Source: Candidatus Kaiserbacteria bacterium RIFCSPHIGHO2_12_FULL_53_13 (GTDB lineage: Bacteria; Patescibacteriota; Minisyncoccia; Phycocordibacterales; UBA2100). From it: a stretch of DNA of 33,539 bases. This document shows positions 22,206 to 25,560 of this stretch, in pieces. The stretch spans positions 7,981-41,519 of the forward strand of contig MFLP01000010.1 in assembly GCA_001781555.1 (NCBI GenBank), read 5' to 3'. The translations under genes were made by a program, and so were the position numbers. How positions within the stretch are numbered: position 1 is the first letter of the stretch; every line of letters begins with the position of its first letter. The notes beneath the pieces were generated by a model. The model ran no database searches. It was not told the origin of the DNA and saw only the letters and a program-made list of their open reading frames with translations.

Positions 22206-23468
22206 ATGGTAAAGCGTGAGAAACTCTCTGTCGAACCGTACAAAGGCGTCCGCGACTTCTATCCGGAAGACCAATTCCTCCTGCGCTACATATTCGAGCA
22301 CATGGAGCGCGTCTGCGAGCTTTTCGGCTACGAGGAATACGGTGCTTCAGTATTGGAACATGCGGAGTTATATCGAGGAAAGACTTCTGAAGAAATTGTA
22401 AGCGAGCAGACTTACACTTTCACAGATAGGGGCGAGCGCGAAGTGACGCTCCGCCCGGAAATGACGCCGACATTCGCGCGCATGATCGCGGCAAAAGCGC
22501 GTGAAGTTCCTCTCCCCGCTCGTTGGTACTCGATCGCGAACGTATTCCGCTACGAGCGGCCCCAACGCGGACGCTTGCGTGAACACTGGCAATTGAATGC
22601 GGACATCGTAGGGGTGGCCGGTGTAGAGGCAGACGCCGAGATAATCGCGATGGCGCACGGTATCATGCGTTCCCTTGGCGCCGATGAGAGGAACTTCGAG
22701 ATCCGCGTTTCCGACCGGAGAATTCTTGACGCCGTGTATGATTCCGTCGGCATCGAGAGCGGTCTGCGGTCTTCCATTACCCGACTTCTGGACAGACGCG
22801 CAAAAATGGATGATTTTAAGGAACAATTATCCGCCGCCGTCTCAAATAATGATAAGGCGGAGGCGCTTATGGAACATCTGGAACGCACGACGAGCACTGC
22901 TTACCTTGAGGAACTCCGCGCGCAACTTGAACACATGGGCGTGCGCAATATGGTTGTGGATACGAAAATAACACGAGGTTTCGACTATTACACCGGCATG
23001 ATATTTGAGGTTTATGACACTGACGAGAACAATAAGCGCTCGCTATTTGGAGGCGGACGCTACGATAATCTGCTCGCTCTCTTCGGCGGCGGTTCTATCC
23101 CCGCCGTCGGCTTCGGTATGGGCGACGTGACAACACGCGATTTTCTGGAGGCGCACAACTTGCTCCCAGTCTACGCTCCCGCAACAGAGTTGATGCTCTG
23201 TATCGTTGAGAAAAACGCGCTGCCGCACGCCATGAAACTCGCGCAAGAGCTTCGCCGAGAGGATGTGACCGTTGCCGTCAATTTCTCGGATAAGCGCGTG
23301 GGAGACCAGATCCGCCAAGCTGATAAAATGAAGATCCCATTCGTCATTGCGGTCGGAGCGCAGGAACGCGAATCTGGGCGTTATACGATAAAAAATCTCT
23401 CAAGCGGCAACGAGATAACTCTCCCTGCCGATCGCATTGCCGAGCACTTGTTCAGTTCGTTGGGCTAG
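22206..23468 (+). CDS. hisS: Histidyl-tRNA synthetase
   Basis: Class II motifs YKGVRDFYPED, TLRPEMTPTFAR, FRYERPQRGRLREHWQLNADIVG, GFDYYTGMIFEVYD, GGGRYDNLL. Confidence 0.96.
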   Translation: MVKREKLSVEPYKGVRDFYPEDQFLLRYIFEHMERVCELFGYEEYGASVLEHAELYRGKTSEEIVSEQTYTFTDRGEREVTLRPEMTPTFARMIAAKAREVPLPARWYSIANVFRYERPQRGRLREHWQLNADIVGVAGVEADAEIIAMAHGIMRSLGADERNFEIRVSDRRILDAVYDSVGIESGLRSSITRLLDRRAKMDDFKEQLSAAVSNNDKAEALMEHLERTTSTAYLEELRAQLEHMGVRNMVVDTKITRGFDYYTGMIFEVYDTDENNKRSLFGGGRYDNLLALFGGGSIPAVGFGMGDVTTRDFLEAHNLLPVYAPATELMLCIVEKNALPHAMKLAQELRREDVTVAVNFSDKRVGDQIRQADKMKIPFVIAVGAQERESGRYTIKNLSSGNEITLPADRIAEHLFSSLG

Positions 23469-24127: not shown

Positions 24128-25102
24128 TCACATCACCGTTGAGGGCAGCAGAATGACGAAATCTTCTGCTCTGTAGTCCAGCTCAAGAATGAGCTTGTTC
24201 ACATCCGCCGAGGGCACAATGGACGCGATCGAGCAGAACTTCGGGTCAGCGAGCGGCGTGACCGTCGGACTTTTCAAGGTCGGGAGGATTTTCAGTATCT
24301 GATCGAGGCAGCTCACGCGAGCATTCATGGCCAGATGCACCAGCCGCCGCGCTTCAAGCGTGCCCTTGAGAAGGCCCGCCAAGAGCAGTTGCAGTGATCT
24401 GAGCCGTTCGGTCTCGGGATCGTCCAGATTGCCGCCGAGAGTGAACTTGTTTCCGATGAGCACGGTACTCGAGTCGGAGATTTTTCCGCCTTCGATCTTC
24501 ACTAGCCTATTTCCATACAGTGTGCCGCCCGTCTCGACGAGCGCGACACCGAAAAGGTATTTCTGAAGATATACCAGTACTTCCGACGAACCCCGGGAAG
24601 GAATGACCCAAAAATTAAGTCCTTGCTCCCGGAGAAATGCCTCGGTTTGGGCGGGATAGTCGCTCACGATCATTTGCTCTTTTCTCACTTCCGCGATCCC
24701 TCCATGAGTTCCGAAGATGCCCAGCGGCCTCATGTCTTCCAAGGTCTTGATGGGATTATCGGCACGCGTGAACAACACGCACTGCGTTCCGTCGGCGGTT
24801 TGGCGGCTATACGGGAGTTCGGCACAGATCTCGATTGAAGGCTGCGGATTCTCGAGAATCACGTCCTTGCCCGTTATACCGAAGAGCGCAAGACCATCGC
24901 CGACCAATTCTGCGACCTGTTCCGGTCGGCAGAAAATTGCTCGGGTAATGTCGGGTATGCCTTCGACAACCGCCTCGATGGCTCGCGGATTTTCGCGCTT
25001 TACGATGATCCGCGCCTCGCACAACAGTTCGAGCGTTTGCGGCCCGAGATTTTTCCCTTCGGGCAATGCGATCGTAAGGTCTGATTTTTTACCGGATTTC
25101 AT
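24128..25102 (-). CDS. hisG: ATP phosphoribosyltransferase (HisG-like, long form)
   Basis: LTIALPEGKNLGPQTLELL, FGITGKDVILE, VETGGTLYGNRLVKIEGGKISDSSTVLIGN. ATG at 25102 preceded by SD AAGGA. Confidence 0.8.
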   Translation of the reverse strand: MKSGKKSDLTIALPEGKNLGPQTLELLCEARIIVKRENPRAIEAVVEGIPDITRAIFCRPEQVAELVGDGLALFGITGKDVILENPQPSIEICAELPYSRQTADGTQCVLFTRADNPIKTLEDMRPLGIFGTHGGIAEVRKEQMIVSDYPAQTEAFLREQGLNFWVIPSRGSSEVLVYLQKYLFGVALVETGGTLYGNRLVKIEGGKISDSSTVLIGNKFTLGGNLDDPETERLRSLQLLLAGLLKGTLEARRLVHLAMNARVSCLDQILKILPTLKSPTVTPLADPKFCSIASIVPSADVNKLILELDYRAEDFVILLPSTVM

Positions 25103-25152
25103 TTTCGTTCCTTTCAATGAGCAAGCTTCCTGTTCTGGGCACGGGAAACGAA

Positions 25153-25178
25153 AGCCCCCTCTCTCGCGAGAGGGGGCT
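25153..25178 (-). terminator. Strong hairpin between regulator and hisG (terminator/attenuator candidate)
   Basis: Perfect 11-bp stem AGCCCCCTCTC / GAGAGGGGGCT with a 4-nt loop; short T-rich stretch TTTCGTTT follows on the minus strand. Confidence 0.6.
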
Positions 25179-25206
25179 GATTTGATACGAATGATGAGGC
25201 ATCAAC

Positions 25207-25518
25207 TCAACTCTCTCTCGCCAGAGGAATTGAATGATGATGATGCAGGCGCGTGATGATAGTCCGATATCCCCCCTCCTTTCCATTGAGCCATTTGGAA
25301 ACTCGAGCGACCGTGGTCGAACTCAAGCCAGTCTTTTTTTCTATAATTGTGTACGGCACATTCTGCGCAAGTAATTCAGCAGTCTGATATCTCTTGGCGA
25401 ATTCCTCAATCTCATTTTCAGTCATCAAGTCACGCAGAAAACGCCTAGCCTCATCAGGAGTTTGTAGCGCCAAAATCGCCTGAATTAATTGTTTATTTTC
25501 CTTGTTATTCCAATCCAT
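25207..25518 (-). CDS. TrpR/YerC-family transcriptional regulator
   Basis: LMTENEIEEFAKRYQTAELLAQNVPYTIIEKKTGLSSTTVARVSKWLN matches the TrpR/YerC HTH; C-terminus ...RLHHHHSIPLARES. Confidence 0.9.
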   Translation of the reverse strand: MDWNNKENKQLIQAILALQTPDEARRFLRDLMTENEIEEFAKRYQTAELLAQNVPYTIIEKKTGLSSTTVARVSKWLNGKEGGYRTIITRLHHHHSIPLARES

Positions 25519-25524
25519 ACGGCC

Positions 25525-25560
25525 ACTTTAGCAAAGTGCAGTACTTTAGTCAAGTAAAGT
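25525..25560 (-). promoter_or_regulatory. Promoter with two overlapping palindromic operator-like sites upstream of the TrpR-like gene
   Basis: Minus strand: TTGACT (25548-25553), 17-nt spacer, TAAAGT (25525-25530), 6 nt, ATG. Palindromes ACTTTA-N6-TAAAGT (25543-25560) and ACTTT-N3-AAAGT (25525-25537). Confidence 0.7.

Follow-up and report, generated by a model that had tools for sequence, protein, structure and literature searches.

Why should the gene for a predicted repressor end in a run of histidine codons, a short distance ahead of a perfect hairpin and of hisG? The question is raised by a locus of Candidatus Kaiserbacteria bacterium RIFCSPHIGHO2_12_FULL_53_13, from which we analyzed one stretch of 33,539 nt (the window). 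An original prediction, made from the sequence alone, had proposed that the end of the regulator gene serves as the leader peptide of a histidine attenuator. Joint conservation and compensatory covariation in comparative sequence support this proposal, and we consider it about 90% probable that the locus is a His attenuator of the ribosome-mediated kind, with the repressor gene hisR in the role of leader ORF.

Elements of the hisR-hisG locus

The elements of the locus are listed below in the order in which they would be transcribed.

25543..25560, minus strand: HisR operator 1, ACTTTACTTGACTAAAGT, which matches the published core TTTAnnnnnnTAAA exactly; includes the -35 element TTGACT (25553-25548)
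25525..25542, minus strand: HisR operator 2, ACTGCACTTTGCTAAAGT, an imperfect copy that overlies the -10 element TAAAGT (25530-25525)
25207..25518, minus strand: hisR (YerC/YecD, TrpR family), predicted repressor gene, 103 aa, with TIGR02531 and Pfam Trp_repressor matches
25234..25245, minus strand: four His codons (CAT x4) in frame in hisR, the presumed regulatory codons
25223..25235, minus strand: strand 1 (S1), predicted to form a local hairpin with strand 2 directly after the His run; moderate covariation
25199..25221, minus strand: strand 2 (S2), 5' arm of the antiterminator; spans the final codons of HisR, its stop codon, and a few bases beyond
25166..25188, minus strand: strand 3 region, antiterminator 3' arm, the 3' portion of which is the terminator 5' arm
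25153..25178, minus strand: intrinsic terminator hairpin (strands 3:4), perfect 11 bp with a loop of 4, AGCCCCCTCTCGCGAGAGAGGGGGCT
25114..25122, minus strand: boxA-like GCTCATTGA, directly upstream of the hisG ribosome-binding site
24128..25102, minus strand: hisG, ATP phosphoribosyltransferase, long form, the presumed attenuated target

HisR of the window matches TIGR02531 over residues 6 to 91 (HMM score of 65 bits, with a cut-off of 42.2) and Pfam Trp_repressor over residues 9 to 91. With the family domain set at residues 6 to 91, residues 92 to 103 (HHHHSIPLARES) form a 12-residue extension. Ashniev et al. (PMC9413887) gave the TrpR-family regulator YerC the name HisR and reported the operator consensus cacTTTAnnnnnnTAAAgtg and autoregulated hisR-his operons. 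The operator recurs upstream of hisR in relatives, and its core is exact in the window at 25560-25543. The hisR promoter (TTGACT-17-TAAAGT) ends only 6 nt ahead of the ATG, and the hisR mRNA is therefore probably leaderless. Since the predicted operator overlaps this promoter, repression and attenuation would be layered, with HisR, through possibly histidine-dependent DNA binding at its own promoter, as the repressor layer.

The four CAT codons in frame near the 3' end of the regulator gene (25245-25234, minus strand) and the perfect 11-bp hairpin ahead of hisG (25178-25153, minus strand) were both confirmed. RNA folding, which had been suggested as a check, gave z = -4.45, and none of 200 shuffles was equally good. 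The hairpin is followed by TTTCGTTT, T-rich at 25152-25143 on the minus strand, with a T-tract interrupted by CG; this region has three terminator-like sites, compared with 0.7 in shuffles. As predicted, GCGAGAG of the hisR tail is complementary to CTCTCGC of the hairpin 5' arm, and the tail:hairpin duplex of the window has z = -4.8. This antiterminator pairing held up, though over a longer extent than first proposed (arms 25221-25199 and 25188-25166), and the element now also takes in the promoter and operators at 25525-25560. A second frame with His codons (ATG CCT CAT CAT, start at 25202) is missing in relatives, looks like a product of chance, and was dropped. The hisS gene does lie nearby (22206-23468, at a distance of about 1.7 kb), but it is encoded by the plus strand and converges with hisG; membership of hisS in the hisG operon was rejected because of this opposite orientation. 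A separate hisG promoter, named beforehand as a case that would speak against attenuation, was not apparent: no promoter-like site was seen on the hisG side in the 50 nt past the hairpin, and the sole other promoter-like match on the minus strand lies within hisR (25285-25256), at about chance level.

Conservation of the tail and of its pairing

We then compared the locus with relatives fetched by protein similarity (entries L002 and L035 correspond to a single locus). The His tail and the terminator are present at about 60 diverse Patescibacteria loci, on contigs labeled Kaiser-, Ryan-, Uhr-, Kerfeld-, Falkow-, Nomura-, Specht-, Moran-, and Berkelbacteria, among others. The extension in relatives usually has two or three His residues followed by ...ARGS, ...RRGLS, or ...GKGLS. 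The His run, the hairpin, and the antiterminator pairing are kept together across many of these lineages, as the original prediction required of its relatives. Pairing between the tail codons and the 5' arm of the terminator has z < -2 in 61/64 tail loci, and the tail is the best-pairing window within its own gene in 60/63. Mean duplex energies were -19.9 kcal/mol for cognate partners versus -13.4 kcal/mol for swapped ones (5000 permutations, minimum -14.9).

In a 51-sequence alignment, 18 of the 22 antiterminator pairs showed two-sided compensatory change (181 cells), a level reached by none of 500 shuffles, and 90.5% of the antiterminator cells were paired versus 75.5% after shuffling. The effect was gone when partners were slid by 1 to 3 columns, with about 52% of cells paired after a one-column slide. 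Two-sided change was found in 7/13 terminator pairs of the same alignment. Covariation gives the strand 1:2 hairpin no more than moderate support: 74% of its cells are paired, its covariation score exceeds that of all shuffles, and its median z is -1.6, while its two-sided change in 7/11 pairs is a count matched by 143/500 shuffles. Because the loci are related, the covariation counts do not represent independent events; safeguards against this kinship are the control with slid partners and the diversity of helices (e.g., L052, L072, L085, and L106). A conserved A.C mismatch breaks the antiterminator in most of the aligned sequences. Plain RNAalifold on alignment A1 recovered the terminator alone, as one would expect of mutually exclusive folds, and the antiterminator was therefore tested as a named structure. 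In three loci (L006, L008, and L013), the terminator hairpin looks duplicated or tandemly extended.

Could the hairpin be a plain, unconditional terminator of hisR, with hisG having its own promoter and the complementarity arising by chance from low-complexity GA/CT sequence? We regard this as very unlikely. The two-sided covariation of the antiterminator speaks against it, as does the finding of this RNA ahead of hisS together with separate His leaders, even if a GC-rich perfect hairpin followed by T's is typical of an ordinary terminator; the energy difference between cognate and swapped partners speaks against chance, however readily purine-rich tails pair with C/T-rich arms; and the 50 nt past the hairpin hold nothing promoter-like.

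Another explanation, more improbable still, takes the His-rich tail as a feature of the HisR protein (metal binding, ligand sensing, or DNA contact) that is kept for its amino acids. The tail is indeed translated as part of HisR and its HHH resembles a metal-binding motif, but it is the codons, and not the residues alone, that are conserved: among sequence pairs sharing the residue, codon identity at conserved tail positions is 0.90 for Leu and 0.92 for Ser, compared with about 0.2 to 0.3 for most Leu and Ser residues in the body. An earlier stop codon in L054 and L057 leaves strand 2 as untranslated RNA, and L088 has a frameshift yet retains the DNA element. The tail is also predicted to be disordered, the last eight residues (96 to 103) of the window HisR having a pLDDT below 50 in an AlphaFold2 model, and a folded protein element was rejected on this ground. 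Free-standing copies without any HisR and the avoidance of His elsewhere in hisR likewise argue against a protein feature. By these comparisons, the tail is conserved as RNA rather than as protein.

The distribution of His codons fits ribosome-mediated attenuation. Over 63 loci, His accounts for 151/735 codons (21%) just upstream of S2 versus 4/5079 (0.1%) in the gene body, and 57/63 loci have two or more His codons in that upstream segment. When the family domain is taken as the body, His makes up 5/5666 residues in HisR proteins with a tail versus 30/1898 in tail-less ones (p about 7e-14). This depletion agrees with the need to avoid early stalling in a leader, but it could be partly inherited, since tail-bearing proteins mostly form one large tree group. 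The His content of the downstream products is 1.7%. The first His codon lies at a median of 18 nt from S2, and S2 ends at a median of -1 relative to the stop codon. From this geometry, and with the ribosome footprint at its generally known size, strand 1 would be partly or wholly covered by a ribosome stalled at the His run, and strand 2 by one that terminates.

Tail-less HisR genes are found upstream of obg-like GTPase genes or upstream of HisG, mostly of the short form, and a further ORF. The case of a hisR-hisG pair lacking the His run, which would have weighed against the original prediction, does exist in a minority (L012, L015, L017, L023, and L087); there HisG is mostly of the short form and is followed by a further ORF, and there is no attenuator. 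These loci look like a different operon type and not like counter-examples. Another locus, L011, has kept the hairpin and has one His codon. We computed a HisR tree from which the tail columns were left out; on it, the distribution of the tail requires 10 changes versus 21 with shuffled labels. This tree has few columns and many open forks, and L032 is wrongly scored as tail-less in it because its contig ends. Tail-bearing rows are mostly in one group with scattered tail-less members, a pattern consistent with a single gain and several losses.

Proposed mechanism and relation to known systems

The sequence itself presents an operator on the hisR promoter, a 3' His run, mutually exclusive antiterminator and terminator structures, and a downstream target. 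We propose that, when charged tRNA-His is ample, the ribosome would reach the hisR stop codon and cover strand 2, the terminator would form, and hisR mRNA alone would be made. When His-tRNA is scarce, the ribosome would stall at the CAT run and cover strand 1; the freed strand 2 would capture the nascent strand 3, and RNA polymerase would continue into hisG. At the promoter, a further layer of control would come from HisR as a DNA-binding repressor.

Before strand 4 is made, the strand 2:3 pairing is the best fold of the window RNA (-26.1 kcal/mol, changing to -0.4 with a ribosome at the stop codon). Once strand 4 is made, equilibrium folding favors the terminator at the ribosome positions tried, including the His codons. 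A switch explained by equilibrium folding alone was rejected on this basis, and it follows that the switch must be kinetic, which would need a ribosome closely trailing RNA polymerase. Least credible of the alternatives is some other tRNA- or protein-dependent antitermination on the same hairpin (T-box-like, or HisR binding its own RNA): T-boxes target hisS and his genes in other phyla, but no Rfam family gave a match, T-box and His_leader included, the His_leader covariance model (RF00514) having been run on the window and 12 related loci, and the translated His run conserved in HisR-tail and stand-alone forms would be left unexplained.

Taken as ribosome-mediated attenuation, the locus likely represents one gene with two independent histidine sensors, namely, a repressor protein that acts at the promoter and last codons whose stalling acts on the next gene. 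Its body would have lost its His codons so that stalling is confined to the regulatory run, and the whole would descend from an ancient event that joined a stand-alone His leader to a repressor gene; the fused form would have spread over many Patescibacteria lineages and been lost several times.

The design shares with the his operon leader of gammaproteobacteria (hisL, RF00514) the His run, the alternative 2:3 and 3:4 folds (with a predicted 1:2 fold), the intrinsic terminator, and the proposed stalling logic. However, hisL encodes a dedicated short peptide, whereas the leader ORF here is a complete 103-aa predicted DNA-binding repressor. His leader peptides precede hisS and hisZ in Bacillus (PMC2965389), and candidate his attenuators were described in Firmicutes (PMC9413887); like L158, L161, and L163, these combine a stand-alone leader with a terminator ahead of hisS or his genes, but they belong to another phylum and have no regulator gene as leader. 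The HisR (YerC) regulons of PMC9413887 have in common with our loci the TrpR-family regulator, the operator consensus, and the autoregulated hisR-his operons; Patescibacteria are not among the phyla listed there, and no C-terminal leader function is described. Attenuators were sought in that study at operons without HisR control, and HisR and attenuation were therefore treated as alternatives, unlike in the Patescibacteria loci, which combine both in one gene. In Chlamydia trpRBA, too, a TrpR-family repressor gene is followed by a predicted attenuator and then by the target genes trpBA (PMC6504234), but the leader peptide is annotated as intergenic, outside trpR, and is not firmly validated. 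Within a literature search that left subscription journals largely outside, we found no description of leader-peptide attenuation in Patescibacteria or of a repressor gene in the role of leader ORF. Classical leader-peptide attenuation of his genes and HisR repressors are already known, and what appears new is the repressor gene as leader ORF. A full-length transcription factor used as a leader peptide would unite two control layers that are usually separate, and in many tiny-genome Patescibacteria the last dozen HisR codons would double as a built-in histidine sensor.

Target genes and free-standing copies

HisD was not found in the genome of the window (88.5% complete), and HisA/HisF gave no match over the cut-off; hisG is therefore an orphan step here. 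In relatives, hisG stands beside hisI or PRPP-synthetase-like genes, as part of a partial pathway. The common theme of the predicted targets is histidine: those behind HisR tails include hisG and hisI, although some have no known His role. A histidine-racemase-like gene follows HisR in L062, where the tail is degraded. A tRNA-His gene lies directly behind a HisR-tail attenuator in three lineages (L041:3508-3580, L042:3498-3570, and L043:3496-3568), where tRNA-His supply itself may be under attenuation. Boxes resembling boxA (TGCTCWTTGA or GTTCTTTRA) occur directly ahead of the ribosome-binding site of the target gene, often following a small hairpin, in 26/62 loci versus 5.8 expected by shuffling.

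A covariance model built from the antiterminator was run on a phylum sample and a class sample of genomes, and it matched 33/380 and 34/384 of them, respectively. Many of the matches are HisR tails; the tail-less controls L012 and L015-L030 gave no match. Other matches lack HisR and have instead a short free ORF, as in the following examples.

L161: stand-alone His leader MKFIITQNIRHHHARFSCERGLH, before hisS
L158: stand-alone His leader MKFQQSLNSIRHHHSHNLLRKRIELML, before hisS
L114: short free ORF MNLTFAKSYHHNFLFFGRGLS, before a GCS2-like gene, a family that is also a HisR-tail target

A stand-alone His leader with the same RNA also precedes hisS in L163, and hisS is the second gene after the free leader in L124. 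The antiterminator had z < -2 in 16/16 free-leader loci tested, though these were found with a model of the antiterminator. Weak matches without clear His leaders (L135, L137, L138, L140, L141, and L166-L169) were not counted as evidence. In Patescibacteria, attenuation appears to be widespread and modular: a single RNA design, attached to a repressor gene or to a free leader, precedes hisS, tRNA-His, hisG, and genes of unassigned role.

One unnamed family is a frequent target (L049:3427-4311, L033, L034, L046, L071, L075, L079, L086, L010, L114, L153-L155, and L164). The members scanned had no Pfam match over the cut-off, and an AlphaFold2 model (pLDDT 90) is similar in structure to glutamate-cysteine ligases (2gwc, TM 0.74). 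This GCS2-like family is possibly a gamma-glutamyl ligase linked to His supply, and a response to His-tRNA would offer a functional handle on such unnamed families in mostly uncultured bacteria. Before members of this family in L153, L154, and L155 (near 1501-1612), the leaders have NWHYH or NWHYY codons in place of a His run, which suggests retuning toward aromatic amino acids.

Two of the weak matches, L135 and L141 (near 1501-1611), have Leu-rich short frames (TLLLI and TLLLL), that of L141 lying immediately upstream of a tRNA-Val gene; they may represent a related element for a different amino acid. Finally, the model matched the 3' ends of long non-HisR ORFs in L099:590-681 (minus strand) and L134:1501-1602 (271 and 422 codons), which end in SHHASPL and NHRDHPL, respectively, and are possible further leaders embedded in other genes.
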